The notes under the pieces are model-generated. The model did not search any database. It saw only the letters and a list, made by a program, of their open reading frames with translations, and had not been told where the DNA came from. From a virus: 26,499 bases of DNA. This document shows, one piece after another, positions 2,068-23,251 of this stretch. Position 1 is the first letter of the stretch. Each line of letters begins with the position of its first letter. The position numbers were made by a program, and so were the translations under genes. The DNA lies in the IMG/VR virus record IMGVR_UViG_3300008267_000474, positions 1 through 26,499 of that record. One strand, written 5' to 3'.

Positions 2068-3798
2068 ATGTCGTCACACGGTTCTTATTTTAAGAATTGG
2101 TCGTCGATAGATAGAAGTACGACTCGCTTGCCTATAGAAAGGCAGGAGTATACTACGCCTTTTTTTGGACAAGTGATGGAGGTGATTTATGATAGTGAAG
2201 AGCCCGAACTTATAGGTGTCGTTAGAGTTAAAATCTTCGGCAGAGATACAGATAAGAAAGATGAAGATATTACTGCACCAGCTTTCCCAGCAGATAAAAA
2301 TATAATTAAATACCCAGTACCAGGAGAGCTTGTACTACTAGTTGTTGGTATATCAAGATTTGACGAAGAAAAAACATTAACGGGTAAAAGATTGTATTAC
2401 ACATCAGTATTGGCTTCAAGTGGTGTTGTAACATACAACGCAAATCCTTATTACCTAGATAAACCAAAAAGTGAGAGCAATACATTTTTTGATCCTGCTT
2501 ATGAAACACGGTTTCAAGCAAAGGATATACTAAAAAATAACAATAGCTTTATCATAGATGGTATGGCTAAGAATAGACCAATGCTAAAGCCGTACGAAGG
2601 TGATGTTATATTACAAGGAAGGTGGGGTGCGTCTATTAGGTTTGGTAGTACTGGATATGGGGAAGGTAATCAATGGTCTACTGCTCATCAATTATTACCA
2701 AAGTCAAGTGCATCACCACAATCAGGTAACGCTATAACATCTATAGTTGTTAGTAGACAGAGTGATAATTTAGCTACAGTTGTTGAAGATGTGAATAAAG
2801 ATGATTCATCGATTTATATGAGTGGAGTACCAAATATTCCAGTATTTTTAGCAACATCGAGAGATTTAAGTACGTTTGGTAGATTGTATAATGTACCAGG
2901 CAATCCGTTTGCAAGTCCAAGAGGTGATTATACTGCATTTCAAAAACCAACAATTGCTGAACCACGTATACAAGTCGTTAATGGCAATACTTCAGTAAAT
3001 TATTCCGGAGGTGGTGGAGGAGGTGGTGATTTTATTGGTGGCGGAAGCGGAGGAAGTGTAGATACCTCGGTTGTTAATCCATTTGATTTATACACATATC
3101 TATGCTGGAACCAGGGTAACTGGGGAGCTACCAATCATTATGCGTTAGCTTTTGGCGTTGGTCCAAATGCCTCGAGAAATGCGAAAGCAGTTGCAGAAAG
3201 TGGTATTTATAAAATAAAAAACTCACGATCAGGTACTTGGGAAAACATAAGCCAAAATTGGCCAGATAGGTATGTAGCAGTGAAAGTTGTTGCTCCGGAT
3301 GGCGCGCCTATGACTGTATACAAAGCCAGAGAAGTGTTTTTTAATGGAGGTAATGATAGATTAGTGGCACAAGCTTTCATAGATGCTTGGTACCAAATAT
3401 ATGCAGATAAACAAAAAGGTTACAAGAATTTATATGAAAGTAGTGGTACCACAAAATCTGGCTTACCATACGCAACATTAAGAGACATATTCAACAGATA
3501 CCAGCAGCCACAGAATGGCTTTACCGCAGAACGACTTGCTGTATTTGGATATATAGAAAATGGATTACAGACCGATACTGAGACAGATGAACATTTTCAA
3601 ACAATGTTTCAAATGGGTCGAACTTGGTATAGTAAATATATTGATAGAGCAGCAATACCAGCAGGAAGAAATAGGCCACAAATGGCAGGTAGACCAGGGA
3701 GAGTGGATTATGATATGGAGATATTAACTAGAGATGTAGTGCCGCTTATAGTAGAAAAGATACAAGATTTTCAAAGAGAATTAGATATAAAACTGTAA
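2068..3798 (+). CDS. gp5-like baseplate hub/spike protein with C-terminal domain of unknown function
   Basis: This encodes 576 residues. Residues 1-310 are the gp5-like module: an OB-fold-like part (FFGQVMEVIYD, VVRVKIFG, KYPVPGELVLL, YYTSVL, about residues 30-120), then a beta-rich part (PYEGDVILQGRWG, IRFGS, VEDVNKDDSSIYM, about 170-260). In T4, gp5 trimers form the central hub and spike that punctures the outer membrane. A Gly-rich linker lies at about 314-335, with seven consecutive Gly at 314-320. Residues 336-576 form a domain I do not recognise. It opens with YLCWNQGNWGATNHYALAFG, faintly like the AYN-x-G region of lysozyme-fold transglycosylases, but no catalytic Glu can be assigned. 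Because the two paralogues carry enzymes here, a lytic role is plausible but unproven. Spacing is 1 nt on both sides. Confidence 0.75.
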   Translation: MSSHGSYFKNWSSIDRSTTRLPIERQEYTTPFFGQVMEVIYDSEEPELIGVVRVKIFGRDTDKKDEDITAPAFPADKNIIKYPVPGELVLLVVGISRFDEEKTLTGKRLYYTSVLASSGVVTYNANPYYLDKPKSESNTFFDPAYETRFQAKDILKNNNSFIIDGMAKNRPMLKPYEGDVILQGRWGASIRFGSTGYGEGNQWSTAHQLLPKSSASPQSGNAITSIVVSRQSDNLATVVEDVNKDDSSIYMSGVPNIPVFLATSRDLSTFGRLYNVPGNPFASPRGDYTAFQKPTIAEPRIQVVNGNTSVNYSGGGGGGGDFIGGGSGGSVDTSVVNPFDLYTYLCWNQGNWGATNHYALAFGVGPNASRNAKAVAESGIYKIKNSRSGTWENISQNWPDRYVAVKVVAPDGAPMTVYKAREVFFNGGNDRLVAQAFIDAWYQIYADKQKGYKNLYESSGTTKSGLPYATLRDIFNRYQQPQNGFTAERLAVFGYIENGLQTDTETDEHFQTMFQMGRTWYSKYIDRAAIPAGRNRPQMAGRPGRVDYDMEILTRDVVPLIVEKIQDFQRELDIKL

Positions 3799-3799
3799 C

Positions 3800-5905
3800 A
3801 TGGGATCGTATTTTAAGGACTGGCCATCAATAATGCCTACTAAACCCTTCACAGATAGAAGGGGGGCTGATTCTACACAACCATACTTTGGACAAGTATT
3901 GGACGTACTATACGATAATGGTGATTTTGTCGGAATTATAAGAGTTAAGATATGGGGCATAAGTGAGGGTAAAGAGGATTATGACGGGGAGGATACAGTC
4001 GATACTTACGCAGAACCAGCAGATATTAATATAATTAAGTACCCCGTACCAGGTGAAATTGTTATGTTGACAATGGGCTTGAGGAGTAGAGATGACGAGG
4101 ATATAACAACAAAGACGTTTTACTACACAACAGTACTATCCTCAGGTGGTAGTATAAGCTATAATGGTAGTGCTTATTATATTAATACAACAAAAGCAAG
4201 AGCGAGTTTAGGTACAACGTCAACCGATCTACGAAATGCCGAAGAGTATAAGAAAAGGTTTCAAAAAGTTATGAAGGATTCAAAAAAGTTTTATGAATCC
4301 GACAAGCTAAAAATTAGACCAGTGCTTAGGCCCTATGAAGGTGATATGATTATACAAAGCAGATGGGGTTCTTCTGTTAGATTTGGTAGTTTAGGATTTG
4401 AAGACAATAATCAATGGTCTAAAAAGAAATCAGGATTATCAGGCGATCCCATAATGATCATATCTGCAAATAGCAGTACTGGCAACGCAACCGCAGTCGA
4501 AGATGTAAATAAAGATGACTCTACAGTGTACTTGTGTTCATCACAAACTGTACCAATAAACATTGCGACTTCAGAAAATTTATTATCATTTAGTAAAGTT
4601 TACAATGTACCGCCTAAGTCTATTGCAACAACGGTACCAGATAAGACTGTCTTTATTAGGCCAACACCAAGACCACCAGAAATATGGGTATCAGGTGTTG
4701 AATATACAGGCGGCGATGGCAGTAATGGAGGTCCTGTAACATTCCAGGGTAGTAGTGGTAATGGTGGTGGTACTTACGCTGGTGCCGGGAAAGGTGAACC
4801 TTTCCTTAAAAGTGTTGATGGTGTAGCTACACCATATGAACTACTTACATGGGATTTATTAGGTGCAAGAGAAGGATATGTGAATATATTAACATGGGAT
4901 TGTACATGCTGGAGAACAGGTGTTGGATCACACACTTTGACAGCGCATTGGGTAGATGCTAGTAAATATCATAATCAAAAAGCTGTACAAAAGATTGGAG
5001 GTAAAAGTTTGGTTGTATTAAATTTTTACGATAAGGATTTTATACACGATCCTGCTAATCCTACAAAAAAATATAACTCAGATCCATATTGGTGGCCATG
5101 GAGATGGAAAAATTACAATTTAGGTATATTGGAATTCAGGTATATTGGTGATAAAAAGGCTGATGTAGATGCAGCAAGAAGAAACACATCAAATACATTT
5201 GGTCAATTCGACTCAGGCTGGGCAGGACCTATATGGCATCAGGATATGTCTTATAAAAATCCAAAAAGTAAGTGGTATAATAATAAAGATTTTTTAGGCA
5301 GGTTTAAAGATAAAGAAAAGTCAAACCAACTTAAGCCTAATGATACTAGTCAAAATGGTTCACCACATATACAGTCATTTAACGATGCAAATATAGACTT
5401 TGCAAGAAAGATTAAAACAGAATTATTTAGTGGTGTTAAAAATCAAATCCAAAAAAAATCACAAGTTCCTGTCGATACCATTATTAATGCATTAGGTCCT
5501 GGTACCTGTGCAGCACTAACCTCCATAGCTTATAATGGCGGTGCTGGTGCTTTATCATACACAATACCACCAAATTTATTACCATTGGATTATGCGGGAA
5601 CGTTTGGATGCAAAACTCTAGCAGAAGTAGCAGCTACTGGTAATAGATTTGCAACAGCATTAGCTATTTCCGCCTTTTCGTTTAAATCAAGCGGAAATTG
5701 TGCTGAAGGAACAAAGAAAGGAGTCGCACAAGACAGAAGGCAAGTGGAGGCATATGTTGCTTTATACGATAAAATGCCACCAAACATGAAAGAGTTTGAC
5801 GATTATGCAGTTGGATCTGTATCAGCACAAGACAGTGTTAGAATTAACTTACAATCAACAATAACACAAGCAGCGTCAGAAGCTGGTGTAGCAATAACAG
5901 TATAA
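3800..5905 (+). CDS. 5: gp5-like baseplate hub protein with GH24 tail lysozyme domain
   Basis: This encodes 701 residues. Residues 1-300 are the gp5-like OB-fold and beta module; a Gly/Ser linker follows at about 304-335. The C-terminal domain is a phage lysozyme of the GH24 family, which cleaves the MurNAc-GlcNAc bond of peptidoglycan. E358, D367 and T373 have exactly the spacing of E11, D20 and T26 in T4 lysozyme, followed by GVGSH. Family landmarks also appear near the end: SIAYNGGAGAL (N579) and the Arg pair R646-R647. OB module plus lysozyme matches T4 gp5, but the order of the beta needle differs and no long needle follows the lysozyme. About 200 residues separate T373 and N579, far more than usual, with a Trp-rich insertion (YWWPWRWKNYN). 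This is the best gp5 orthologue among the three paralogues. Confidence 0.85.
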   Translation: MGSYFKDWPSIMPTKPFTDRRGADSTQPYFGQVLDVLYDNGDFVGIIRVKIWGISEGKEDYDGEDTVDTYAEPADINIIKYPVPGEIVMLTMGLRSRDDEDITTKTFYYTTVLSSGGSISYNGSAYYINTTKARASLGTTSTDLRNAEEYKKRFQKVMKDSKKFYESDKLKIRPVLRPYEGDMIIQSRWGSSVRFGSLGFEDNNQWSKKKSGLSGDPIMIISANSSTGNATAVEDVNKDDSTVYLCSSQTVPINIATSENLLSFSKVYNVPPKSIATTVPDKTVFIRPTPRPPEIWVSGVEYTGGDGSNGGPVTFQGSSGNGGGTYAGAGKGEPFLKSVDGVATPYELLTWDLLGAREGYVNILTWDCTCWRTGVGSHTLTAHWVDASKYHNQKAVQKIGGKSLVVLNFYDKDFIHDPANPTKKYNSDPYWWPWRWKNYNLGILEFRYIGDKKADVDAARRNTSNTFGQFDSGWAGPIWHQDMSYKNPKSKWYNNKDFLGRFKDKEKSNQLKPNDTSQNGSPHIQSFNDANIDFARKIKTELFSGVKNQIQKKSQVPVDTIINALGPGTCAALTSIAYNGGAGALSYTIPPNLLPLDYAGTFGCKTLAEVAATGNRFATALAISAFSFKSSGNCAEGTKKGVAQDRRQVEAYVALYDKMPPNMKEFDDYAVGSVSAQDSVRINLQSTITQAASEAGVAITV

Positions 5906-5906
5906 T

Positions 5907-7757
5907 ATGGCAGGTGGATCTTATTTTAAAGAGTGGGGATCTTTAGGTCCTAAAACAACACAACCAAGAAGTGTGTACGGCACTGACATATCTGCACCAT
6001 TGATTGGACAAGTATTGGATGTATATTACACACAGTCAAGAAATACCAACGCTGCCCCAGGTCTTATAAAAGTAAAAATATTTAGTTTTAATGATAGAAA
6101 AACTGATGAGGAGGTTACAACAATGGCCCACCCAGCAGATTTGAGTATTATTAAATACCCAGTACCAGGTGAACTTGTATTGCTAACAATGGCTTTAAAA
6201 GAGGATTTAGCTCTTAATAGAATAACCAAAACATTTTATTACACAACAGTGCTAGCTGCTGCAAAGAGTGTGACATATAATAGTAAGCCTTTTTATTTTG
6301 AGTATAAACCGGACACAAGTACATCAATTGTTAATGTTTTAAATGCAATATTCAAAAGTGACTCACCCGCAAAGAGGTTTGAAGTTAAATTGCAAGATGT
6401 AAGTAGATTTATGAAAAAATCTACTGTTATGGAAAGAGCAATACTTAGACCGTATGAAGGTGATTTTATAATACAGAGTAGATTTGGTTCATCACTAAGA
6501 TTAGGTAGTACTACAAAAGATGATAATCAATGGTCTAAGGTTGGTGGTGTACTTGGTAGTCCTATAACCATATTTTCTATCAAAACTGATGTACATAATC
6601 CGTTAAATGATCCAAAAAAACTACCAACAGCTCAAGACCAAGCAGGTGGAGATTTACGAGGAGTGTCGTTTGGAGCAGCGACAGCCGTGTTGACACAAGA
6701 TGCATTTAGTGAGTTATTAAGTAGTACAAAAAAGGAGAGATTGTTTCAAAAAAAACTTACAGTGGAAGATATAAACTCAGACGCTGCAACATTCGCTTTA
6801 TGTAGCAAGCAGCGGATCGAAGTTAAAATGGCAACATCTAGAGAGTTGTTAACATACAAATACTCTTATAATATATCTAACCAACCACTACAAGCACTTG
6901 AAAACCAAGAACCAACATTCTTACCAATGGTTGTTAAACCGCCAACTATCAGAGTATCAGGAGTAAGACCAGTTGGTCAAATTAACAGTAATGGTGGTAT
7001 AGATTCTAATTTAGGTAATAGTGGTGGTGTATTTGCTGGCAATTACCAAGAAGGAGGTGGTATAGATATTAAAGAATTATTTAAAGATGACCCAACTAAA
7101 TTGCAAGATAAAAACGCAGCTAGAAATCTCGACTACTATTCTGAAAATCAGTTTGGTCCTGTAACTAGAGAACATATTTGTGTTGGTGATTCACAAACAC
7201 CATACGTTTCTAGAAATTCTGTAAAAGCGGAAATCATAGGACCACCAGGCGTACCAAACTTACACCATGGTGGTGAGACTGTTAAGTGGTTAATAAGTGC
7301 TATAAAAACAAGAGCTGTGTCACCACTTGTAAAGACAGTCGTAGTTGTAATAGGTACCAATGGAAGATTTAGCAAATACGATAAAGTAGAAACACTAGTT
7401 CCAACAATGTTAGAAAGGTTTCCAAATGCTAAATTTTTAATAGTGCAAGGTGGATATGGTTGGGGATACCGAAATGGCCAGGCAGTAAACTTATTTATGA
7501 CAGACAAGACTGGTTTGACTGATGCACAAAAAGAAGCAGAAGACTTAAAAATAGTACAAACATACTATGCAAGATTTACAGAAGCGTTTAGAGTGGCTGG
7601 TAGTTCAAATAAGTGTATAATTGTGGAACCTGGGATTGGTAAACCAACAATGAAAAAGAAGAACGAAAAAGGAGAGTTGTATGATCAAGTTGAAGTGCAT
7701 CAGAACCATCCTATATATGGAGAGATAGGTAAAAAGATAGATAGTTTGATAGTGTAG
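5907..7757 (+). CDS. gp5-like baseplate hub/spike protein with C-terminal SGNH (GDSL) hydrolase
   Basis: This encodes 616 residues. Residues 1-350 are the gp5-like module (LIGQVLDVYY, KYPVPGELVLL, YYTTVLA, RPYEGDFIIQSRFGSS, NQWS). It is longer than in the paralogues because of an insertion of about 60 residues after the NQWS motif. A Gly/Asn linker spans about 360-386. The C-terminal domain has the SGNH blocks: ICVGDSQT with nucleophile S429, a GPPGV turn near 440, VVVVIGTNG with G483 and N485, and a terminal VHQNHPIYG with H598 or H601 as catalytic His. SGNH enzymes hydrolyse esters, often acetyl groups on polysaccharides. On a spike it could deacetylate surface glycan or peptidoglycan, which is inference. 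The start follows the lysozyme gene by 1 nt. A 26 nt gap follows. Confidence 0.8.
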   Translation: MAGGSYFKEWGSLGPKTTQPRSVYGTDISAPLIGQVLDVYYTQSRNTNAAPGLIKVKIFSFNDRKTDEEVTTMAHPADLSIIKYPVPGELVLLTMALKEDLALNRITKTFYYTTVLAAAKSVTYNSKPFYFEYKPDTSTSIVNVLNAIFKSDSPAKRFEVKLQDVSRFMKKSTVMERAILRPYEGDFIIQSRFGSSLRLGSTTKDDNQWSKVGGVLGSPITIFSIKTDVHNPLNDPKKLPTAQDQAGGDLRGVSFGAATAVLTQDAFSELLSSTKKERLFQKKLTVEDINSDAATFALCSKQRIEVKMATSRELLTYKYSYNISNQPLQALENQEPTFLPMVVKPPTIRVSGVRPVGQINSNGGIDSNLGNSGGVFAGNYQEGGGIDIKELFKDDPTKLQDKNAARNLDYYSENQFGPVTREHICVGDSQTPYVSRNSVKAEIIGPPGVPNLHHGGETVKWLISAIKTRAVSPLVKTVVVVIGTNGRFSKYDKVETLVPTMLERFPNAKFLIVQGGYGWGYRNGQAVNLFMTDKTGLTDAQKEAEDLKIVQTYYARFTEAFRVAGSSNKCIIVEPGIGKPTMKKKNEKGELYDQVEVHQNHPIYGEIGKKIDSLIV

Positions 7758-7768
7758 ATATTTATATT
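7758..7768 (+). promoter_or_regulatory. TATTTAT motif in intergenic gap, candidate late promoter element
   Basis: ATATTTATATT lies in the 26 nt gap between the SGNH-spike gene and the GDPD-spike gene. TATTTAT ends 18 nt before the ATG at 7784. No Shine-Dalgarno-like purine run is visible before that ATG, which makes the gap unlike the other three. Confidence 0.3.
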
Positions 7769-7783
7769 ATATACTAGTTTTAC

Positions 7784-10700
7784 ATGCCTCTATCCAATAC
7801 AGATCCAAACCAACAACCCACAGCACCAGCTGGTACTGGTGCAGTATTGGCTCCAAGTCCATCATCAGGAACACCATCTGTATCAGGAGCACCGTCTCTT
7901 CAACTTTCACCTCTAAGCAACATACTGTCATCAGGCATAAACACATCACCGCAGTCAACAAGTACCGGAGCTGATCCAAACAAAGTAGCTGGCCAGCCCG
8001 ATCCGTTACCAGGTAGCACAGATAAATCCCCATCAAATAAAGGCAGCGGTAATGTATTAAATGATATATTCTACGACATGCAGGTTAGTATGACCGGCAT
8101 GCGCGATGTCAATAAAATACTTAATGTACAAAAGTCAAATGAAGGTACAGTAAATAACTATACAAACGGTAGTACAATTATTATTAATTCAGATCGTTTG
8201 ATATTAAACTCAAAAAAAGATTATTTAATGCTTTGTGGTACTAAAGGTGTTTTAGTTAGTAGTCCAAAAGCTGTGCATATAGATTGTGATGAAGATTTGC
8301 ATTTGTTTTCATCTAACGGTGAGATTTTTATTGGTTTACCAAACAAAGGTAAAGACTATGATTTCGATAGTCAAACACCACCATCAAAAAAATCAGATGC
8401 AACAATGAACGAAAGATGGGAGCCGCTTCCACTAGGGTTAAAGCTGATAAACTGGCTTCAGGATTTAACAGCAGCATTAGTTGGATCAGCTTATTATGGA
8501 CCAGGTGGTACGTCATTACCAACACCCGAAATGAGAGATAATATAGAAGGCTTAGCAGCTAGATTGCCAGAAATATTATCAACAATAGCATTTATTGATG
8601 GTGTGTCACACGCTAATCCATTACCCTATACACCATCAACAGAACAAAAACCTGCCGATAATAAGCCTGCAGATCAAGCTGGTAGTACTACGAGTGGAAC
8701 AGGAACCGCAACCGCTGATGGTAAGCCTGCAAGCACAAACACAACAACGGTTAGTGGAGCAAGTAATCCACAATCAGGTGGTGGAGGTACAGCGTCAGTC
8801 AGCGCTGGGTCAGCTGCTAACGCAGGCAACCTTGAAAATATTGAGTTAAACACAAGTACAAATAACGCAGATGGGGTTGTTGGATCAGGTACATCAACTG
8901 GTCAAAATGTTGAAGGATTTACTCCAGCTATAGATGGTGGATCTTTGGATATAAGTGGAATTACTACAAAATACTTTTACATAACAAGGCAAGAAACTAT
9001 TGACGAGGTCACAGAATCTCAGGTAGAGATAATGTTTAGAAATAGTGAATACTCTCCTGCAGGTATGAGTGAGAGAAGTAAGACAGCTAGTAAGGAGGAT
9101 TTGTTAAAGCAAGCATTTGATAATGCTAAGCAGAGTGGTATTACTGATTGTAATCAAAGTACAACAACAGATGCCGGTGTTTGGGATTTTAGTGATGTGT
9201 TCTTTACAATTGGAGAAGAGACGGACGCACCAGCTGCCGAACCAGTAGCTTTATTATCAACCTCTGATCTAGGTTCTATAAGTGTCAATATACCAATACA
9301 GCAAGGCTTCAATTCCTTCGGCAATTACACACCAGCCGATATTCCAACTGATTTCAAAGTTGTTGTAGAAGATAAGTATAGCACAGCATATCCAAGTATA
9401 ATAAATCTACTTAAAAACAGAACTGCAATGTCTCACATATCAAAGTGGGATGGTGCTAATAGATCAAGTACTGAGAACCAAGTTGCTGGTGTAATGAGTA
9501 ATTTTGATAATGGAATATTGTCTGTCGAAATTGATCTTGCTTTAGACAAATTAAATCAAGTATTACTTTACCATGATGCGACTTTAGATAGCAAAACAAA
9601 TGCAACTGGTGAGATCAGAAATTGGCCTCAACAAGCTAAGATTGATGGTGTAGATATAGCTGCAAGTGATGCTAATTGGTGGCAAAAAGTAAAATATAAA
9701 AATACAAACGAGACGCTTAATAAATTATCACAGGTATTTGATGCAATGGCAGCAAATAAGGAAAAGTATAAAAATTGTTTTGTACAATTAGATAAATGTG
9801 ATGGCGAAGAATTAAAAGTTGTTGCAAGTATGCTACAAAAGGCAGACAGGCAATGGCTTAGACCACAAGTTATATATAAAGGTCGTCAACCATCAGATGT
9901 AGGTAAAACAAACAATTTTACTTTTATGTACAAATTCAATCGTGGTTCAATGAGTGCGATTGCTAGTGACGCTGAAGTTACGAAAATACGTGATCAAATA
10001 CTTGATTGGAAAAGACAAGGTCACAACGTACCGTTAGTAGAGTTAGAGTTTACTTGCCAAGATATAAAGATACTAGATGGAACATTAGCTAAAGCACTTG
10101 CATCTATTGGCACTGGTATGATGATAGTAGCTGTTGGAGGTGCTCAATACACACAGCCACAAGATCGATGTATTGATAAAACAAGAAGAATCGAACCACC
10201 ACCACCACAACCTGGTCCAAACGATCCGCCATTAAGAGAAGATCAGATATTTGTATCTTATGATTTTACTGGAGATGGTCAAGATCAATGGAGAGCAATG
10301 GTAGAAACTGGTGCAATAATGATTATGACAAATAAACCAAAAGTGTGTCAAGATTACTTAAATAGCCAAAACATAGCATTACCAATACCATTTGAAATAA
10401 CACCGTCAACGTTTAGCGGATTAAACATTGTCATTAAAAACAAAGCAAACGCTAAATTAAGAACAACCGCAGAGATAGATGATACAACACCAGATAACTT
10501 TGAAGTAATTGCTGTACAAAAAGGAGCAATATCACTAAATGTAAAGTTTTGGCCAAAAACTGATACAAATGGAGCTGTAATAGGTGGCCACCTAGTTGGT
10601 GCAACAACAGCCATTACCGGTGAATCAGGTATAGCTGGTAAAGCTGTAACCTCTGGTGATATAATGAAATGGGTACAGAATAGAGCACAATACTTACCAA

Positions 10701-10882
10701 CTAATAGCATATGGAAAGATGTGTTTGTAGTAGTTGGACCAACTAGCGGTATAACGGTCGATGGAGTGAAAATCAAACCAGACTCAGCATTTGGACTTGA
10801 CCAGCATCCAACTGGTGTTAAGTTAGAAAAAACATACTACATATCATTAGCAGATATGGAATGGGAATGGCCACAAGTATAA
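7784..10882 (+). CDS. Spike/needle protein with glycerophosphodiester phosphodiesterase (GDPD) domain
   Basis: This encodes 1032 residues. Residues 1-90 are Pro/Ser/Thr-rich. Residues about 120-190 (INSDRLILNSKKDYLMLCG onward) show the alternating pattern of a beta-helical needle, like VgrG or gp5 C-termini. A Thr/Ser/Gly linker spans about 282-390. Residues about 545-865 match GDPD enzymes, which cleave glycerophosphodiesters with a metal ion in a TIM barrel: H551 in MSHIS, E564-N565 in STENQ, E582 and D584 in VEIDL, H597-D598 in YHDATLD, then TNATGE, a candidate ligand D670 and MIMTNKP at 847-852. The usual HRG reads HIS, so the Arg is missing. The C-terminal 150 residues form an unassigned beta domain. 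The likely role is attack on lipid headgroups, teichoic-acid-like or glycerophosphate-decorated surface polymers at infection; the substrate is unknown. Confidence 0.78.
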   Translation: MPLSNTDPNQQPTAPAGTGAVLAPSPSSGTPSVSGAPSLQLSPLSNILSSGINTSPQSTSTGADPNKVAGQPDPLPGSTDKSPSNKGSGNVLNDIFYDMQVSMTGMRDVNKILNVQKSNEGTVNNYTNGSTIIINSDRLILNSKKDYLMLCGTKGVLVSSPKAVHIDCDEDLHLFSSNGEIFIGLPNKGKDYDFDSQTPPSKKSDATMNERWEPLPLGLKLINWLQDLTAALVGSAYYGPGGTSLPTPEMRDNIEGLAARLPEILSTIAFIDGVSHANPLPYTPSTEQKPADNKPADQAGSTTSGTGTATADGKPASTNTTTVSGASNPQSGGGGTASVSAGSAANAGNLENIELNTSTNNADGVVGSGTSTGQNVEGFTPAIDGGSLDISGITTKYFYITRQETIDEVTESQVEIMFRNSEYSPAGMSERSKTASKEDLLKQAFDNAKQSGITDCNQSTTTDAGVWDFSDVFFTIGEETDAPAAEPVALLSTSDLGSISVNIPIQQGFNSFGNYTPADIPTDFKVVVEDKYSTAYPSIINLLKNRTAMSHISKWDGANRSSTENQVAGVMSNFDNGILSVEIDLALDKLNQVLLYHDATLDSKTNATGEIRNWPQQAKIDGVDIAASDANWWQKVKYKNTNETLNKLSQVFDAMAANKEKYKNCFVQLDKCDGEELKVVASMLQKADRQWLRPQVIYKGRQPSDVGKTNNFTFMYKFNRGSMSAIASDAEVTKIRDQILDWKRQGHNVPLVELEFTCQDIKILDGTLAKALASIGTGMMIVAVGGAQYTQPQDRCIDKTRRIEPPPPQPGPNDPPLREDQIFVSYDFTGDGQDQWRAMVETGAIMIMTNKPKVCQDYLNSQNIALPIPFEITPSTFSGLNIVIKNKANAKLRTTAEIDDTTPDNFEVIAVQKGAISLNVKFWPKTDTNGAVIGGHLVGATTAITGESGIAGKAVTSGDIMKWVQNRAQYLPTNSIWKDVFVVVGPTSGITVDGVKIKPDSAFGLDQHPTGVKLEKTYYISLADMEWEWPQV

Positions 10883-10892
10883 ATATAAAAAA

Positions 10893-11564
10893 ATGACAGA
10901 GAATCAAGCACCGGTTATTGGAGGATTAAAAGAACTCAAAATTGAGCCAACTAATACTGGAATTAAACCTAAAACTACAAAGAGTGATTTAGTTTATAAT
11001 AAAAACAGGGCTGTAATGCACATTAATGTGCGTAAAAGTTTTGACATGCTAAATACTCATATGTCTAATCGATTAGGACTGCAGATTGAAATAGTTGAGT
11101 GTATAAAAACTGAGTATGAGATTATAAATGAACTAATATCCATTTACAAGTATAAGAATAGATTACCAGTACAGACTTTAGAATCCGATTCAGATGTTGG
11201 CTACGAAGCCGTAAAAAATTTTATCATAAACAGCGATGCATCGGATTTTGAACCACCATTAATCAGAGAAGGTGGATCAAAACTTGCAAATAGGGCACCA
11301 TATGAGCCTTTATATACTATACCAAATTACCCGTCTGTTGATCCTCGACGCACAGGTAGAGTTTTACGAATAGGGCCAAGAGCACAAATAAATCCAACAA
11401 TCTTAAATTTCTTAGTACATAATGCAGGAGATTATGGATTCTTGCATTATGGTCCCTATGATCCAACTATTTGGTATTATAGAGGTGATATTGCACCATA
11501 TGTGTATAAGCCAAAAGAAGTCGTTAGTTATTTGAATAGTGAGCTAAGTTTTCTGTTAAGATAG
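10893..11564 (+). CDS. M15/VanY peptidase-like protein lacking the zinc ligands
   Basis: This encodes 223 residues. The layout resembles M15 D-Ala-D-Ala carboxypeptidases: an N-terminal helix and strand (NTHMSNRLGLQIEIVE), then RRTGRVLRIG at 152-161 where the family has H-x-x-G-x-A-x-D, then FLVHNAGDYGFLHYG and DPTIWYY at 190-196 where the family has E-P-W-H-W-x-Y. If this alignment holds, the three zinc ligands are replaced by R152, R159 and I193 and the catalytic Glu by D190, so the protein should not be an active zinc peptidase. It may bind peptidoglycan or serve as a structural hub part. No signal peptide is visible. A start is clear at 10893, 10 nt after the upstream stop. The family call rests on pattern only and is tentative; a small baseplate protein is the alternative. 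Confidence 0.5.
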   Translation: MTENQAPVIGGLKELKIEPTNTGIKPKTTKSDLVYNKNRAVMHINVRKSFDMLNTHMSNRLGLQIEIVECIKTEYEIINELISIYKYKNRLPVQTLESDSDVGYEAVKNFIINSDASDFEPPLIREGGSKLANRAPYEPLYTIPNYPSVDPRRTGRVLRIGPRAQINPTILNFLVHNAGDYGFLHYGPYDPTIWYYRGDIAPYVYKPKEVVSYLNSELSFLLR

Positions 11565-15563: not shown

Positions 15564-15992
15564 ATGAAAACAAAGGAGTTTATACAATCCTTAAGAAAGC
15601 TAATTAGGGAAGAGGTTAGAGCTGCGGTTAGAGATGAGCTTAGTGGCATAATAAATGAGTCAATAAAAGCACAGAAGCCAAAGCAACAGTCACAACCACA
15701 ACAACAATATAAAAAACCATCAAACTCAAACTTTAACACAGGTAACGCAACATTAGATGAAATATTAGCAGAAACTATTGTTCCAAGAGGGTTTGGTGGA
15801 GAGAGTGGCCCAGCTGTGTCAGATTATACTGATATGCATTTTACAACAAACGATGTACCTCAATCCTTAAGCACAATTGTGTCTGATGAGGATTTGCCAA
15901 TAACTACGGGTTATAGTGATCCAACAATGATGTTTGTAAAGGATTACTCTGCAATTATGAATAAAGCTAATCAAATAGGCGGTAAATACTAA
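15564..15992 (+). CDS. Small protein upstream of gp25, unknown function
   Basis: This encodes 142 residues. Residues 1-33 form a charged amphipathic helix (FIQSLRKLIREEVRAAVRDE), followed by a Lys/Gln/Pro-rich flexible linker (about 36-55). The C-terminal part contains NATLDEILAET and an acidic, Thr/Ser-rich stretch that looks largely extended. There is no membrane segment. The last base of its stop codon is the first base of the gp25 start codon, so the two are very likely translationally coupled. Position suggests a partner or assembly factor of the baseplate wedge; no homologous T4 gene is recognised. Confidence 0.65.
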   Translation: MKTKEFIQSLRKLIREEVRAAVRDELSGIINESIKAQKPKQQSQPQQQYKKPSNSNFNTGNATLDEILAETIVPRGFGGESGPAVSDYTDMHFTTNDVPQSLSTIVSDEDLPITTGYSDPTMMFVKDYSAIMNKANQIGGKY

Positions 15993-16501
15993 TGCCAATA
16001 TCAGATAACATAAGTGTATTAGATGCCAAAAAAGATGTAGCTATAGGCATTGATCTTCCTTTAATGGATGATTATGGTAGTAGATTTAAACAAAACTATG
16101 TAACATTAGATCAAGCATCTGCAAATGCAAGAAACTTAATATTAACAAGACCTGGCGAGAGAATTATGTTGCCTAATTTTGGTTGTAATCTTTATGGTAT
16201 GCTATTTGAAAACATATCAGATGACATGATTAATGAGTTTAAGTTAAGAGTAAAACAACAATTTGAGTATTGGTTACCTTACATATTTATAAATAACCTC
16301 GAGGCAAGTGCAACATCAAAATTTGAAATTGTTGCATCTTTAGATAAAGATTTGAATACAGTGTATACTAAGCAGAACAAAACAAATACAGAAAGAGACT
16401 ACGCTAAAAATACACTTTATGTTCATATGATTATTAGTTTAAAAAACAATAAATTTGACACCAAGTCAATTTCTTTAGAATTGACTAACAACATGACATG
16501 A
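15992..16501 (+). CDS. 25: Baseplate wedge subunit gp25
   Basis: This encodes 169 residues; T4 gp25 has 132. It belongs to the GPW/gp25 family, found in contractile tails and type VI secretion (TssE), and sits at the inner wedge where it contacts the sheath and gp6. The diagnostic stretch is at about residues 46-75: NLILTRPGERIMLPNFG followed by CNLYGMLFENI. The rest of the fold follows as INEFKLRVKQQFEYWLPYI and the terminal strand YVHMIISLKNN. The extra length is a Thr/Asn/Lys-rich loop near residues 120-138. It overlaps the upstream stop by 1 nt and the gp6 start by 4 nt (ATGA), an arrangement that fits balanced synthesis of wedge parts. Confidence 0.92.
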   Translation: MPISDNISVLDAKKDVAIGIDLPLMDDYGSRFKQNYVTLDQASANARNLILTRPGERIMLPNFGCNLYGMLFENISDDMINEFKLRVKQQFEYWLPYIFINNLEASATSKFEIVASLDKDLNTVYTKQNKTNTERDYAKNTLYVHMIISLKNNKFDTKSISLELTNNMT

Positions 16502-18390
16502 ACTCGGTAAACAGAGATATAACAAAAGAAGTAAGATATGCCGGCAGAGATTTTGATCAGCTCAAAGCAGGATTAATAGACTTTGCAAAAAAGTATTATC
16601 CATCATCTTACAACGACTTTAACGAAGCATCACCTGGAATGATGTTCATCGAGATGGCAGCATATGTTGGTGACGTGCTCAATTATTATATTGACTCACA
16701 ATTAAAAGAGTCAATGATATTACATGCTACAGAGAGAAAGAATATATTAAATATAGCACAAGCATTTGGTTATAAACCAAAAGTATCCGTACCAGCTTTT
16801 GTTGACTTAGACGTCATGCAATTACTTCCACCATCAGGCTCTGGTGCAAACACAGTACCTGACTTTGACTATGCACTAAGGATAGCACCTGGTATGATTG
16901 TAAGAAGCACTTACAACAATACAGATTTTATAATACAGGAGGAAGTTAATTTTAGTACAGATGATTATTTGTCACCAAGAACTATAACCGTTGCCGAAAC
17001 AAGTAATATTGATGGATCGGTTGTTTACTACTTAGCAAAAAAGACTTATAAAGGCATAAGTGCGCTTATGAGAGAAAAGACTATTGAGTTTGGTGAAGCC
17101 ACAAAGTTTGCAAAAGTAGCACTAAATGATGAAAATATAATTGGTATACAAAGCGTTGTCGACTCTGATGGTAATACTTGGTATGAAGTGCCATATTTAG
17201 CACAAGATACCATTTTTCAAAAAGTTGAAAACACACAATATAATGATCCGGATTCATATGTTAATACGCAGGAGGTACCCTACCTACTTAAATTATTAAG
17301 AGTACCACGTAGGTTTGTTGCTAGAGTAACACCCACAGGCATAGAGATGCAGTTCGGTGCAGGTTTAAGTACTTCACCTGGCGAGGAATTATTACCAACA
17401 CCAGAAAATATAGCTTTATCGTTACCAACCGGTATTGAAGATACAGATATCGCATTTGATTCTGTTAGTCCAATGTTTACATCAGCGTATGGACAAGCTC
17501 CATCAAACACAACATTAACTATAAAGTATTTAGTAGGTGGTGGCATATCGTCCAATGTTCCAACAAACACAATTACAACTGTTTATGAAAAAACAATATC
17601 AAATAATATACCATCAACAAACGCAGCTTTAAAAAAAGCAATAACTGACTCACTTGCAGTTAATAACCCAATAGCAGCAACTGGTGGAAGATCAGAAGAG
17701 ACAGTAGAGGAAATTAGACAAAATACACTTGCTCAATTTATGACACAGCAACGAGCTGTAACAAAGGATGATTATATTTTAAGAACATATGCAATGCCAG
17801 CAATGTTTGGTAGTGTATCAAAAGCGTACATAACTCCAGATCAGCAAGAAAACCTAACAACTGCAGATGTAGCAGACAAACTAGCTAACCCATTAGCTAT
17901 GAACCTATATGTGCTTGGATATAATTCAGAAAAGCAACTTACCGTAGTTAATAGAGCTGTTAAAGAAAATCTGAAAACATATTTAGCACAATATAGAATG
18001 CTGACGGATAGTATAAATATAAGGAATGCATTTATAGTTAATATAGGTGTAAATGTCTCAATAATATCTTATCCAGGATATAATGCTAATGAGTTAATAG
18101 GTAATTGTTTATCTGCATTAAAAACGCATTTCGATACAGACAGATGGCAAATAAACGAACCGATTGTTTTTAGTGATGTATTTGGCGCACTTATGAAAGT
18201 TGCTGGTGTGCAAATGGTAACAAAGTTAGAAATAACAAACTTGAATAATGAATTATTAGGATACTCAAACGTTGTATATGATATAAGAAGTGCAACAAAA
18301 AACGGTATTATATATCCAAGCTACGATCCCATGATTTTTGAGGTAAAATACCCAGATAACGATATTAAAGTAAGAATAACACCATACTAA
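16498..18390 (+). CDS. 6: Baseplate wedge subunit gp6 (baseplate J family)
   Basis: This encodes 630 residues, close to T4 gp6 at 660. gp6 dimers form the inner ring that holds the baseplate together and switch shape on contraction. N-terminal landmarks are YAGRDFDQLKAGLIDFAKKY and ASPGMMFIEMAAYVGDVLNY with the following YYIDSQ and ERKNILNIAQAFGYKP. A central LTIKYLVGGGISSNVP is typical of the family. The C-terminal half has the baseplate J signature GGRSEETVEEIRQNTLAQF followed by QQRAVTKDDYILR, then the C-terminal dimerisation region. The start overlaps the gp25 stop as ATGA; the next gene begins 1 nt after the stop. Nothing is truncated. Confidence 0.93.
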   Translation: MNSVNRDITKEVRYAGRDFDQLKAGLIDFAKKYYPSSYNDFNEASPGMMFIEMAAYVGDVLNYYIDSQLKESMILHATERKNILNIAQAFGYKPKVSVPAFVDLDVMQLLPPSGSGANTVPDFDYALRIAPGMIVRSTYNNTDFIIQEEVNFSTDDYLSPRTITVAETSNIDGSVVYYLAKKTYKGISALMREKTIEFGEATKFAKVALNDENIIGIQSVVDSDGNTWYEVPYLAQDTIFQKVENTQYNDPDSYVNTQEVPYLLKLLRVPRRFVARVTPTGIEMQFGAGLSTSPGEELLPTPENIALSLPTGIEDTDIAFDSVSPMFTSAYGQAPSNTTLTIKYLVGGGISSNVPTNTITTVYEKTISNNIPSTNAALKKAITDSLAVNNPIAATGGRSEETVEEIRQNTLAQFMTQQRAVTKDDYILRTYAMPAMFGSVSKAYITPDQQENLTTADVADKLANPLAMNLYVLGYNSEKQLTVVNRAVKENLKTYLAQYRMLTDSINIRNAFIVNIGVNVSIISYPGYNANELIGNCLSALKTHFDTDRWQINEPIVFSDVFGALMKVAGVQMVTKLEITNLNNELLGYSNVVYDIRSATKNGIIYPSYDPMIFEVKYPDNDIKVRITPY

Positions 18391-19474: not shown

Positions 19475-22400
19475 ATGGCAAGAGCTTTGGTAAATAGGAC
19501 AGCAGCACCGCCGACTCCTAGCTCAGAAAGAGGACCAGATGGTAGACTTGTAGGTGATTTAAATGACAACAAATCAGCGTTGATGTCAGGTAGCGTGCCT
19601 GTTATTGATAGGTCCTTTTATAATGAAAACTTAACAGCCTACTCTCTAATACCAACATTAATTAATTATCCACCATACTTTGAAACATCTGTCTACAATG
19701 CTAGTGAACCAATAGTAAAACCTATACAATTTAATGACGAGAATAGAGACATACTATATGTTGATGATACTGGAACAATAAAAGTAGCAGCTGGTTCAAC
19801 ATTTATACTTAGATGCAAAGCCCAACAGCCACCAATTTATAATGTTGAAAATGGTAAGCTAACATTATTATATGATACTGTTGTTCCTTTCGACGCAGCT
19901 AGAAGTACTATATCGGAAAATATTAATCAAAGACAATTAGTGTCAGGTAGTGCTGATGGTAGAGTTTATCTTGAAGATGATTTAACATATGCATGGTTTC
20001 TTGACAACACACCGTTAGAAGGAGTTGTAACCGATACAGTTAATAGAACAACAGAGGTAAGACTAGTTGAACAGGGAAGAGCGATATTCATAAAAAACAT
20101 AACTCCTTTCTTGGCTGGTACATATTATTGTGAAATATCAAACGACATCGGAACAATAACGACAGAGGAGATAACAATAGAGGTTTATAATCCTGATATT
20201 GAAAATAAATTTTATGTCAATTTAATTGAAAACTCTAGCGGTGAATCTGGAATAGAGGGTTGGAGTTCTCCGGATACAGAATTCATATCAGCAAAACTAA
20301 GCACAGCACCATTTACAGAGTTTACAAAACCTTGGAATATTGATGTGTTTGGGTATTCGTTAGATATGTTTTATCCAAGACCGTATCATCTAAATACCTA
20401 TCATATAAAAAATAACAGATTTGAACAAAATCTTGCAAATAACGGTAGCTACTTTACTAGAGAAGATTTTATTTATATTGCAAAAGATGGTAAAAAAATA
20501 GTTCAAGCCGAATATGATGTTGATCTAACAGATATACAAGAGTATATACAAGGATCTATATTTGGCATTGCTGGTGTAAGAGCTATTTTTGGTTGCTATA
20601 TTGGTAACGCAATATCAAAGTTTATACATACTGTTATAGCTGCATCAAAAAAGAGAAGGAATCAAATATACACAGTAGATACCAGTCAGCCTAGAGCATC
20701 ACTGATTAACTGCTTAATAGCAGGTGCACCGATTATAGATGAAAAAATTAAAGTTATTGTAACTGAATATGATAACGAAACACCACTCAAAACACGCAGA
20801 ATGATAAATCCTGATACAGGTCAGGAGGTAATAGAGTATGGTATAGTGATAGAGGATGCGTGGTCTAATTACATAGATGAGAGATATAAGTCAATATGGT
20901 TTAACGGAGAAACTGTTAATTTGGTTCCAGAACCACTACCAAGTGGGTTTGTATCAAAAGGAAATACACGGGAGGAAATTATAATAGAAGGCATATACCG
21001 CATGTTTCCATCTATAAATCAGATACCAACCCATGGCCAGTATGTAAAGTGGAATAGGGAAATTATATCAAAATTAAACTATAGAACAAATAAAATACGC
21101 GTACAAGTTCAATTCGAGATTACTGGTTGCATTGAAGAAACAGATACGTCTTTATTAGATGCATCAGATAGGCCGTTTGAGCAATGGTCATGGCAAAATA
21201 TTATAAAGCCATTATGGTTACCACAAAATCGTGACGCAGAGCTAAAAGTTGCTGGTGAACCTTTACCATTTTATATTAACAATAGACTAGAATCTGTAAG
21301 CGCTGAAGGTTCTGATGAAGTGTCGGCCTTAGATTATTTGCCTTTACACCCATCACCAAGAGCTCTGGCAACGGGTTTTAATTTAATTTTATTTCCAATT
21401 GAACGAAGAAGACCATTAAAAACCAAATATTACACTAAAACTATACTAGAAAGACAGCAATCAGTATCATATCCGACCTTGCAAAATTCTTTGACAGACA
21501 CAACAAGCGCAGATATGTTAGCATTCATAACAAGTATTCAAGCATATACAGGATCCATTATTGCAATTGAGGCAACAAATACTTATAACGTGCCAAAGAA
21601 AATACTACCAACAAATAACTCATATTATGTTGGTACCGATGCTAATAATCCAACCTATCAAGCTCTTGAAAATTTAAAAGCATACTCAGACGTACCTACA
21701 AAACTATCAATTGCAACTTACAAGTTTCGTAAAAATAACGACATCACATCAGAAGTACCGGTTAGAAATATAACAAGATTGTTTGATCAAGGTCTTGGAG
21801 AAGTGAGGGATTGGGAAGCAGCAGCTGTTGCACCAGAGCTTATAGTAGTTGGAACTATGGGTAGTACATATCAAGGAGTTATGAGTGGTCAACTACCACA
21901 AAATGCAATTGGAGGTGATGAAACACCATTTATATTGTATAACCCAAACGCGGTCTCAACCCGAGAAATATCAATACCACAAATCATAGACCAATTACAA
22001 TCATCACTTGTTAAGTTTGTTGATAATCCAATTATAACAAATATACCTAGTGGATTTGTTTTAGAGCCAATGAATATGTCTATATCTGATTATATTAAAA
22101 ATGTTGGGATAAATTTGCAATTAAAATATGAACCATATGGTGAAAATCCTAAATCAAGTGTAGGACAGATTAATCCAGTAACTAGATTTCAAGCATGGAA
22201 ACAAAAAAAATTAACAAAATTTGTATCACAGACTGGAGCAGAGTTTGATGAAATACCAACAGTTGACGTGAGATATAATTTTTTTACAAACGTTGCAGAC
22301 AATAACATAAACTATTACTCACCAAGGCAGATTATGATGTATAGTGATAGGCTGCTTGCAGAGTCAAATGTAAACACCAATCCATTATATAAGAAAAAAA

Positions 22401-23251
22401 CACAATACAATGTATATAATAACGAATACGCTACTGTTGATAATTTAGCATCGGCACCATATACTGAGTGGAAGGTTGACGCTAGTGAAGCAGTAGAAGA
22501 AGCACTTAGAAATGTTGGTTATGCATTAAAGGGTAGAGAGAGTAATTTATTAACATCCCCACTTACGTCAATTGATGGAACTATACTAACACAGCAGGAT
22601 GGATTCTCGGGAATGGAGTATACCAATTATGTACAAAACGAAGTGGAAGATATAGGACCAGGTCCAAATCATATTAAAAAGTATAAAGGTGTAAGTGATT
22701 TAGATAATATTAAAGTTGAAAGGGTAATTACAGGATACGTCAATTCACTAGGTTTACCCGTTAGTTACCAGATAGGACAGCAGGGTAATGTGTTAGGTAC
22801 ACAAACATATACACCAATTTACGAGACTCGTACTAATGTAGTAAGCTTGAAACAACAAGCATATAATAACGCAGTTGCTAAACTTGAACAAGATTATGGA
22901 TTAACTGGCAAAGGTGGTATTGCACAAGAAGGTTATGCAGTTGGTACAAAAAATTTTAAATTAGATGATGTTCAAGTTACTTATTATAAAAATGGTGAGG
23001 TAATGTCAAACCCACCAGTAGCGGTAGTTGAAGAAAACTCTGGTATCATAGCAAATGCAGAAGATTTCGAAGGTGTTACTGTACAATGTACTTTGACTAT
23101 TACAGCATGTGCTGGTAATTGGAGTAGAGTTGCATTAGAAGGATTGTCAACATTAGGTAATAAACTAACTCCTGCAGCGATAGTTTATCCAAAAGCAAAA
23201 AAAATATATTACTTTATTTATAACTATATAGACAATTACGAGCAAGAATGA
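19475..23251 (+). CDS. Large Ig-like domain baseplate/fibre protein
   Basis: This encodes 1258 residues. After a Pro/Ser-rich N-terminus (MARALVNRTAAPPTPSS), an I-set-like Ig domain lies at about 100-235: C114 in FILRCKA, W174 in YAWFLD, and C219 in AGTYYCEISNDIGT, with a conserved disulphide expected between C114 and C219. Their distance is longer than usual because of an inserted loop. At about 249, NLIENSSGESGIEGW begins a galactose-binding-like domain of the FBA type, which often binds glycans. The long C-terminal region (about 420-1258) is beta-rich and unassigned; residues 1150-1220 may be another Ig-like domain (VTYYKNGEVMSNP, GVTVQCTLTITA). The gene comes where T4 has gp7 (1032 residues), so a wedge role is possible but not shown by sequence. 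Its stop overlaps the next start by 4 nt. Confidence 0.7.
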   Translation: MARALVNRTAAPPTPSSERGPDGRLVGDLNDNKSALMSGSVPVIDRSFYNENLTAYSLIPTLINYPPYFETSVYNASEPIVKPIQFNDENRDILYVDDTGTIKVAAGSTFILRCKAQQPPIYNVENGKLTLLYDTVVPFDAARSTISENINQRQLVSGSADGRVYLEDDLTYAWFLDNTPLEGVVTDTVNRTTEVRLVEQGRAIFIKNITPFLAGTYYCEISNDIGTITTEEITIEVYNPDIENKFYVNLIENSSGESGIEGWSSPDTEFISAKLSTAPFTEFTKPWNIDVFGYSLDMFYPRPYHLNTYHIKNNRFEQNLANNGSYFTREDFIYIAKDGKKIVQAEYDVDLTDIQEYIQGSIFGIAGVRAIFGCYIGNAISKFIHTVIAASKKRRNQIYTVDTSQPRASLINCLIAGAPIIDEKIKVIVTEYDNETPLKTRRMINPDTGQEVIEYGIVIEDAWSNYIDERYKSIWFNGETVNLVPEPLPSGFVSKGNTREEIIIEGIYRMFPSINQIPTHGQYVKWNREIISKLNYRTNKIRVQVQFEITGCIEETDTSLLDASDRPFEQWSWQNIIKPLWLPQNRDAELKVAGEPLPFYINNRLESVSAEGSDEVSALDYLPLHPSPRALATGFNLILFPIERRRPLKTKYYTKTILERQQSVSYPTLQNSLTDTTSADMLAFITSIQAYTGSIIAIEATNTYNVPKKILPTNNSYYVGTDANNPTYQALENLKAYSDVPTKLSIATYKFRKNNDITSEVPVRNITRLFDQGLGEVRDWEAAAVAPELIVVGTMGSTYQGVMSGQLPQNAIGGDETPFILYNPNAVSTREISIPQIIDQLQSSLVKFVDNPIITNIPSGFVLEPMNMSISDYIKNVGINLQLKYEPYGENPKSSVGQINPVTRFQAWKQKKLTKFVSQTGAEFDEIPTVDVRYNFFTNVADNNINYYSPRQIMMYSDRLLAESNVNTNPLYKKKTQYNVYNNEYATVDNLASAPYTEWKVDASEAVEEALRNVGYALKGRESNLLTSPLTSIDGTILTQQDGFSGMEYTNYVQNEVEDIGPGPNHIKKYKGVSDLDNIKVERVITGYVNSLGLPVSYQIGQQGNVLGTQTYTPIYETRTNVVSLKQQAYNNAVAKLEQDYGLTGKGGIAQEGYAVGTKNFKLDDVQVTYYKNGEVMSNPPVAVVEENSGIIANAEDFEGVTVQCTLTITACAGNWSRVALEGLSTLGNKLTPAAIVYPKAKKIYYFIYNYIDNYEQE

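Follow-up and report, generated by a model that had tools for sequence, protein, structure and literature searches.

The IMG/VR virus record IMGVR_UViG_3300008267_000474 was analysed over its whole length, as a 26.5-kb virus contig (the window). It contains four consecutive open reading frames (ORFs A–D), all intact, located on the plus strand and almost abutting, at the coordinates given in an earlier note on this DNA. That note had seen in them three hub proteins similar to gp5 of phage T4 and one needle-like protein, each joined through a linker to a separate C-terminal domain. Genes for a gp25-like wedge protein and a gp6/Baseplate_J-like protein are situated downstream of the spike genes, and therefore the locus is assigned to the baseplate operon of a contractile-tailed phage (Table 1).

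The three hubs have a common N-terminal module (N-module) of about 300 amino acids, and the match between the paralogues ends at the linker. Protein B is 43% identical to A over 335 amino acids (E 3e-70) and 45% identical to C over 229 amino acids (E 1e-48). This likeness is far above chance, and the C-terminal domains, hereinafter cargoes, are mutually unrelated. Hence the description of the locus as four consecutive spike genes with a separate C-terminal domain each holds, given the intact reading frames, the common N-module of A, B and C, and the unrelated C-termini. The linkers had been described as Gly-rich or Ser/Thr-rich. This is seen for A and B, which are Gly-rich, and for D, which is rich in Ser, Thr and Gly, while that of C is just weakly Gly-rich.

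Table 1. Features of the spike locus and of the downstream baseplate genes; positions are those of the window
Feature	Position	Strand	Size or basis
ORF A, hub	2068-3798	+	576 aa
Hub A N-module: OB-fold hub domain, beta-helix begins at VEDVNKDDS	2068..2982	+	paralogue alignment, AlphaFold2
Hub A Gly-rich linker	3004..3063	+	sequence, residues 313-332
Cargo A, orphan domain	3064..3798	+	without family match
ORF B, hub	3800-5905	+	701 aa
Hub B N-module	3800..4696	+	paralogue alignment
Hub B Gly-rich linker	4700..4834	+	sequence, Gly-rich about residues 304-332
Cargo B, predicted GH24 lysozyme with long internal insertion	4835..5905	+	intermediate-family HMM
ORF C, hub	5907-7757	+	616 aa
Hub C N-module	5907..6962	+	paralogue alignment
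Hub C linker, weakly Gly-rich	6963..7091	+	sequence, about residues 361-385
Cargo C, probable SGNH/GDSL hydrolase	7092..7757	+	PDB match, SGNH profile
ORF D, needle protein	7784-10882	+	1032 aa
D low-complexity N-terminal extension	7784..8068	+	sequence
D needle module with beta-helix-like repeats, plus conserved tail	8069..8653	+	needle HMM
D Ser/Thr/Gly-rich linker	8654..8938	+	sequence, about residues 298-376
D middle domain	8939..9418	+	without match in searches
D cargo, predicted GDPD (approximate boundaries)	9419..10393	+	profiles, motif residues
D C-terminal domain	10394..10882	+	without match in searches
gp25-like wedge protein, downstream of spike genes	15992-16501		Pfam E 2.6e-9
gp6/Baseplate_J-like protein, downstream of spike genes	16498-18390		PHROG E 4.5e-22

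The AlphaFold2 model of hub A, based on an alignment of 74 sequences, features a confident five-strand beta-barrel at residues ~30–120 and further strands up to residue 252. The block means of the predicted local distance difference test (pLDDT) are 82–95 in most of residues 31–120, 171–200 and 221–250, and 60–83 in residues 131–170 and 201–220. When the hub model was compared to the PDB by Foldseek, the matches were weak overall; OB-fold proteins of the ribosomal S12/S23 type top the list, and a contractile injection system, VgrG1, VgrS and the T4 tail appear lower down. Among predicted viral structures, the model matches an uncharacterised homologue (E 5e-14) and a phage protein annotated as GH19 (E 5e-11) and, more weakly, proteins annotated as "baseplate hub subunit and tail lysozyme" and "Gp5/VgrG OB-fold". 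The hubs are gp5-like, as proposed, by their predicted fold and gene context, with no detectable homology to a sequence family.

Cargo A had been left without a family, and this is still the case: its matches in the PDB (phmmer), phages (tblastn), Pfam, NCBIfam, viral_contigs, and 395 bacterial genomes from the phylum of a Flavobacteriaceae metagenome-assembled genome (MAG) are all at the chance level. The pLDDT of its AlphaFold2 model is largely below 50.

Cargo B yields no GH24 match in direct Pfam and PDB searches. The link is provided by an intermediate GH24 family, fished from viral contigs by a degenerate DNA pattern for the motif WDxxxWRxGxGS. All members of this family that were scanned (21/21) belong to Pfam Phage_lysozyme; its profile finds GH24 lysozymes of solved structure and, weakly, T4 gp5. 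The hidden Markov model (HMM) of the family matches cargo B with E 2.5e-11 in two collinear pieces flanking the insertion. The second piece alone has E 4.8e-6 and lies outside the fishing motif, therefore the assignment is not circular. E358 (4871–4873) and D367 (4898–4900) align with the Glu and Asp invariant in 21 homologues. Judging by these profiles, cargo B is a GH24 lysozyme with the predicted catalytic pair E358/D367 kept. The family fished by the motif, L254–L295, is made up of large phage proteins whose GH24 domain has the type YWDVNAWRxGYGSDT.

Aligned with PAF-acetylhydrolase and an SGNH profile, cargo C shows the first three SGNH blocks in the correct order: GDSQT at residues 427–431 (block I, with S429 at 7191–7193), G455 (block II), and GTN at residues 483–485 (block III, with N485 at 7359–7361). 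The candidate C-terminal histidine is H601 in NHP, at 7707–7709. The top PDB match is PAF-acetylhydrolase, an SGNH enzyme (E 0.011). An SGNH profile constructed from Bacteroidota loci scores 14.3 bits on cargo C, whereas the maximum in 2000 shuffles is 9.8, and the hhalign P-value for this profile is 3e-4 for cargo C versus 0.3–0.6 for the other cargoes. We consider it very probable that cargo C is an SGNH-like hydrolase, not assigned to PF13472. Thus the proposed SGNH identity is retained in the weaker form of a probable one, as the matches exceed those of the shuffles, but PF13472 misses the domain.

The needle gene comes right after the hub genes; weak DUF2345 matches occur in relatives. 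The cargo of the needle protein matches the NCBIfam family of glycerophosphodiester phosphodiesterase (GDPD) with E 3.9e-8 and the PDB entry 3i10 with E 1e-5; the E-value of Pfam PF03009 ranges from 2.6e-4 (the domain alone) to 9e-4, slightly short of the gathering cut-off. The GDPD motif positions are filled by H551, E564, E582, D584 and H597, the latter in H597-D598. By these profiles and residues cargo D is a GDPD domain, in agreement with the earlier note. The predicted SGNH and GDPD activities, like that of GH24, are read from sequence. Among the Pfam searches as a whole, weak matches to Carboxyl_trans, Sarcoglycan and TGFb_propeptide, all below the cut-off and implausible, were rejected.

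Relatives of the locus were collected by profile scans covering up to 80 loci per query and yielding ~240 loci; many contigs are fragments, and the collection may lack records that closely resemble the window, hence the counts are lower bounds. With pieces of the window left out, one hub was found in ~150 distinct loci and two hubs in four (L005, L009, L090 and L092/L093), three hubs being present in the window only. In the phylogenetic tree, the multi-hub sequences form one clade (support 99/99). Hub C groups with its orthologue, hub 2 of L005 (99/97), while hubs A and B are sisters (96/93) placed beside hub 1 of L005 with weaker support (85/79), and therefore the third hub arose by duplication in the lineage of the window. 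Tandem hubs are thus characteristic of a single small clade.

The locus could also represent ordinary tail-lysozyme variation by local duplication and domain shuffling, without any special mechanism, GH24 alone working and the other cargoes decaying; the duplication of A and B is lineage-specific, and multi-domain hubs are known from other phages (PMC10966104, PMC5259590). This explanation is quite unlikely, as the four long reading frames are intact and in frame, and every member of the clade has retained its tandem hubs despite strong divergence of the N-modules.

The cargoes of orthologous hubs differ. Between the window and L005, an upstream 112-aa protein is 96% identical, the HD protein 82%, and gp6 81%, whereas the hub N-modules are ~50% identical and the cargoes cannot be aligned. 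In L005, hub 1 has a VanY (M15) peptidase domain (E 1.8e-11) and hub 2 is bare. VanY is found by Pfam on hub 2 of L009 and, by close similarity to L009, on hub 2 of L090, and in L092 hub 1 is bare and hub 2 carries VanY. The cargo of the relatives is mostly M15 (VanY) peptidases. The needle is bare in L009, L090 and L092, and has an extension in L005 that is unlike that of D. Since the cargo at orthologous hubs is non-homologous or missing, with gp6 and further flanking genes remaining 70–96% identical, the cargo has been exchanged.

The earlier note had also suggested that the set could form a multi-enzyme entry device. As a conserved device it was rejected: the survey of viral_contigs, which may lack records that closely resemble the window, yielded no locus with the four-gene cargo set of the window, and its four close relatives each combine two hubs with a needle, the cargo being different or absent.

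Some other features of these relatives may be mentioned. Hub 1 of L009 (5935–7461) and L090 (10342–11868) has a cargo with the motif EGGY...GETMFGI, which is GH108-like by eye only and has no Pfam or PDB match. L005 (4625–5095) and L009 (537–1007) have a stand-alone M15_3 peptidase gene, distinct from the hub-borne VanY, that is likely the lysis endolysin.

Of 210 single-hub ORFs scanned with the needle HMM, 160 carry the needle module in one polypeptide with the hub module, directly behind it and never in the reverse order. A separate needle gene is found in the multi-hub clade, in L173, which is the closest single-hub relative, and in a few others. Among the hubs with separate needles, a C-terminal extension beyond low complexity is seen in the multi-hub clade, L060 and L198, the extensions of the latter two being VanY-type domains. 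In the simplest history, an ancestral polypeptide of the T4 gp5 type, comprising both hub and needle, would have been split into two genes; the hub would have been duplicated thereafter, and then cargo would have been gained and exchanged at the hub C-terminus, made free by the split. In L173, a separate gene of 305 amino acids is located between the hub and the needle (4096–5010), and the needle (5013–6575) has a C-terminal domain with an NIHRG...SAGC motif, resembling L,D-transpeptidases (YkuD-like) by eye; Pfam and PDB searches with this domain were negative.

We interpret the locus as the central spike of a contractile-tailed phage, with the hub C-termini serving as mounts for interchangeable envelope-degrading domains, and assign to this interpretation a probability of about 0.7. 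Several observations weigh against it. Searches of Pfam, PHROG and the PDB give no sequence match for the N-module of the window, the hub modules of ten distant relatives are likewise unrecognised by profiles of these three collections, and the Foldseek matches of the hub model to gp5 and VgrG are weak (E 0.8–2). Cargo A could be non-enzymatic. In block V of cargo C, the position −3 from H601 is occupied by His598 and the nearest Asp is D593, an unusual spacing; PF13472 applied to the window does not match cargo C, nor does any curated family, and its single-sequence AlphaFold2 model is poor (pLDDT 42.5), making the Foldseek list meaningless. Cargo D does not have the Arg of the usual GDPD HRG motif. 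The window is a genome fragment, and more hub genes may be present elsewhere in the genome.

Divergence of the SGNH and GDPD domains, the orphan cargo A with no catalytic signature, and the bare hubs of the relatives would also fit an arrangement where one paralogue is the central hub and the others are situated elsewhere in the baseplate or are assembly variants, their C-termini being structural or adhesive. This is unlikely, because the cargoes of the clade are recurrently hydrolases, VanY-type in L005, L009, L090 and L092, as well as in L060 and L198, and GH24 here, and the residues E358/D367 of GH24 and E582/D584/H597 of GDPD are retained.

L090 encodes, at 944–1483, a C-terminal sorting domain of the type IX secretion system (Por_Secre_tail, E 3.4e-12), which suggests a Bacteroidota host and phage proteins secreted by the host, and one hub relative is located on a contig of the Flavobacteriaceae MAG. 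Therefore the host is probably a Gram-negative member of the Bacteroidota. By analogy with T4, sheath contraction would carry the spike, with the hubs in their presumed virion position, and the enzymes across the outer membrane to the periplasm. Acting jointly, GH24 would cut glycan strands of peptidoglycan, SGNH may act on O-acyl or O-acetyl esters, and GDPD on glycerophosphodiesters, of the envelope or of surface glycans. As the host is probably Gram-negative, teichoic acid is unlikely to be the GDPD substrate.

Three copies of gp5 are present in the T4 virion (PMC3622015), and the three paralogues could fill one trimer. Tentatively, the hub might be an obligate A:B:C heterotrimer, with one copy of each per virion, to which a homotrimeric needle would add three GDPD domains. 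If so, one spike would deliver three different enzymes in a fixed order and orientation, a swappable multi-enzyme payload instead of the three identical lysozymes of T4. The two-hub relatives show that a strict 1:1:1 ratio does not apply generally. For VgrG1, VgrG2 and VgrG3 of V. cholerae, a heterotrimer comprising two extended members and one bare was proposed (PMC8668125). On the other hand, the paralogues might form alternative spikes, each virion having a homotrimer of A, B or C, so that a mixed burst hedges the host range. The N-modules are equivalent among the gene copies, different VgrG assemblies of the type VI secretion system (T6SS) exist side by side within a single cell (PMC4924876), and the divergence of the hubs to ~45% identity could favour self-trimerisation. 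Still, alternative spikes seem unlikely: in close relatives one hub carries cargo and its partner is bare, which would make poor sense as two alternative enzymes, and no regulatory switch is seen between the adjacent genes, with no in-depth search made for one.

Several other genes in the window surround the spike locus. The first ORF (58–459) belongs to a highly conserved HD-hydrolase-like gene, of which the contig start leaves just the 3' portion; this gene (7653–8387 in L005), located ahead of the hubs, is useful as a marker of the lineage. The protein of 223 amino acids encoded right after the needle (10893–11564) is kept throughout the clade at 47–56% identity and has no family match. Two big adjoining proteins (19475–23251 and 23248–26031) contain one Ig-like domain each (Pfam Ig_2/I-set, E 2e-5 and 6e-4, slightly short of the curated cut-offs) and probably are further baseplate or fibre components.

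Among known systems, T4 gp5 similarly combines an OB-fold hub, GH24 cargo and a beta-helix needle, with gp25 and gp6 wedge genes nearby. However, T4 has one gp5, a single polypeptide with the lysozyme between the OB fold and the beta-helix, whereas in the window the hub and needle genes are separate, the hubs are triplicated, and the cargo is C-terminal and of four kinds. The best functional parallel to the hub paralogues, by analogy, is the set of evolved VgrG proteins of the T6SS, where several gp5-like spike paralogues of one system differ at the C-terminus, some having effector domains and one being bare, and where lysozyme-like and pesticin-like domains replace each other at the end of VgrG3 (PMC9927483). 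At that, the window is a phage tail locus among baseplate wedge genes, not a T6SS locus, no immunity genes were noted in it, and the targets would be polymers in the envelope of the very host that the phage infects. The window hubs have no sequence match to VgrG families in Pfam and PHROG, the likeness being that of a weakly similar fold.

Baseplate hub or spike proteins with more than one hydrolase domain have been described. The hub gp15 of cyanophage A-1(L) unites lysozyme, endoglucanase and peptidase domains, the latter two shown to be active on host cells (PMC10966104), and RaK2 and CBB have multi-domain gp5-like proteins (PMC3622015, PMC5259590). In these phages the domains reside in one polypeptide or hub gene, whereas in the window they are spread over tandem paralogues. 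We found no description of tandem gp5-type hub paralogues with differing cargoes in a phage in our searches of the open-access literature, which is weak evidence. Thus a multi-enzyme hub is not unique, as exemplified by A-1(L), and the unusual part is the cargo being spread over tandem hub paralogues. GDPD domains are known in the tails of phages of Gram-positive bacteria (Enterococcus, Lactobacillus Ld17, Staphylococcus), with teichoic acid as the proposed substrate (PMC10194240). As in D, GDPD there is fused to or part of a virion tail component, but for the window, whose host is probably Gram-negative, another substrate would be expected, either phospholipid-derived or a glycan decorated with glycerophosphate.

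The loci of this clade are a source of new variants of lysozyme, esterase, GDPD and peptidase, presumably acting on Bacteroidota envelopes. They also form a natural set of hub–cargo chimaeras, suitable for asking what barrier of the envelope is breached by each enzyme and if a phage hub can be a heterotrimer. The proposed history would provide a route from a spike to an enzyme mount, through a split, a duplication and cargo exchange at the free C-terminus, with the baseplate remaining constant.

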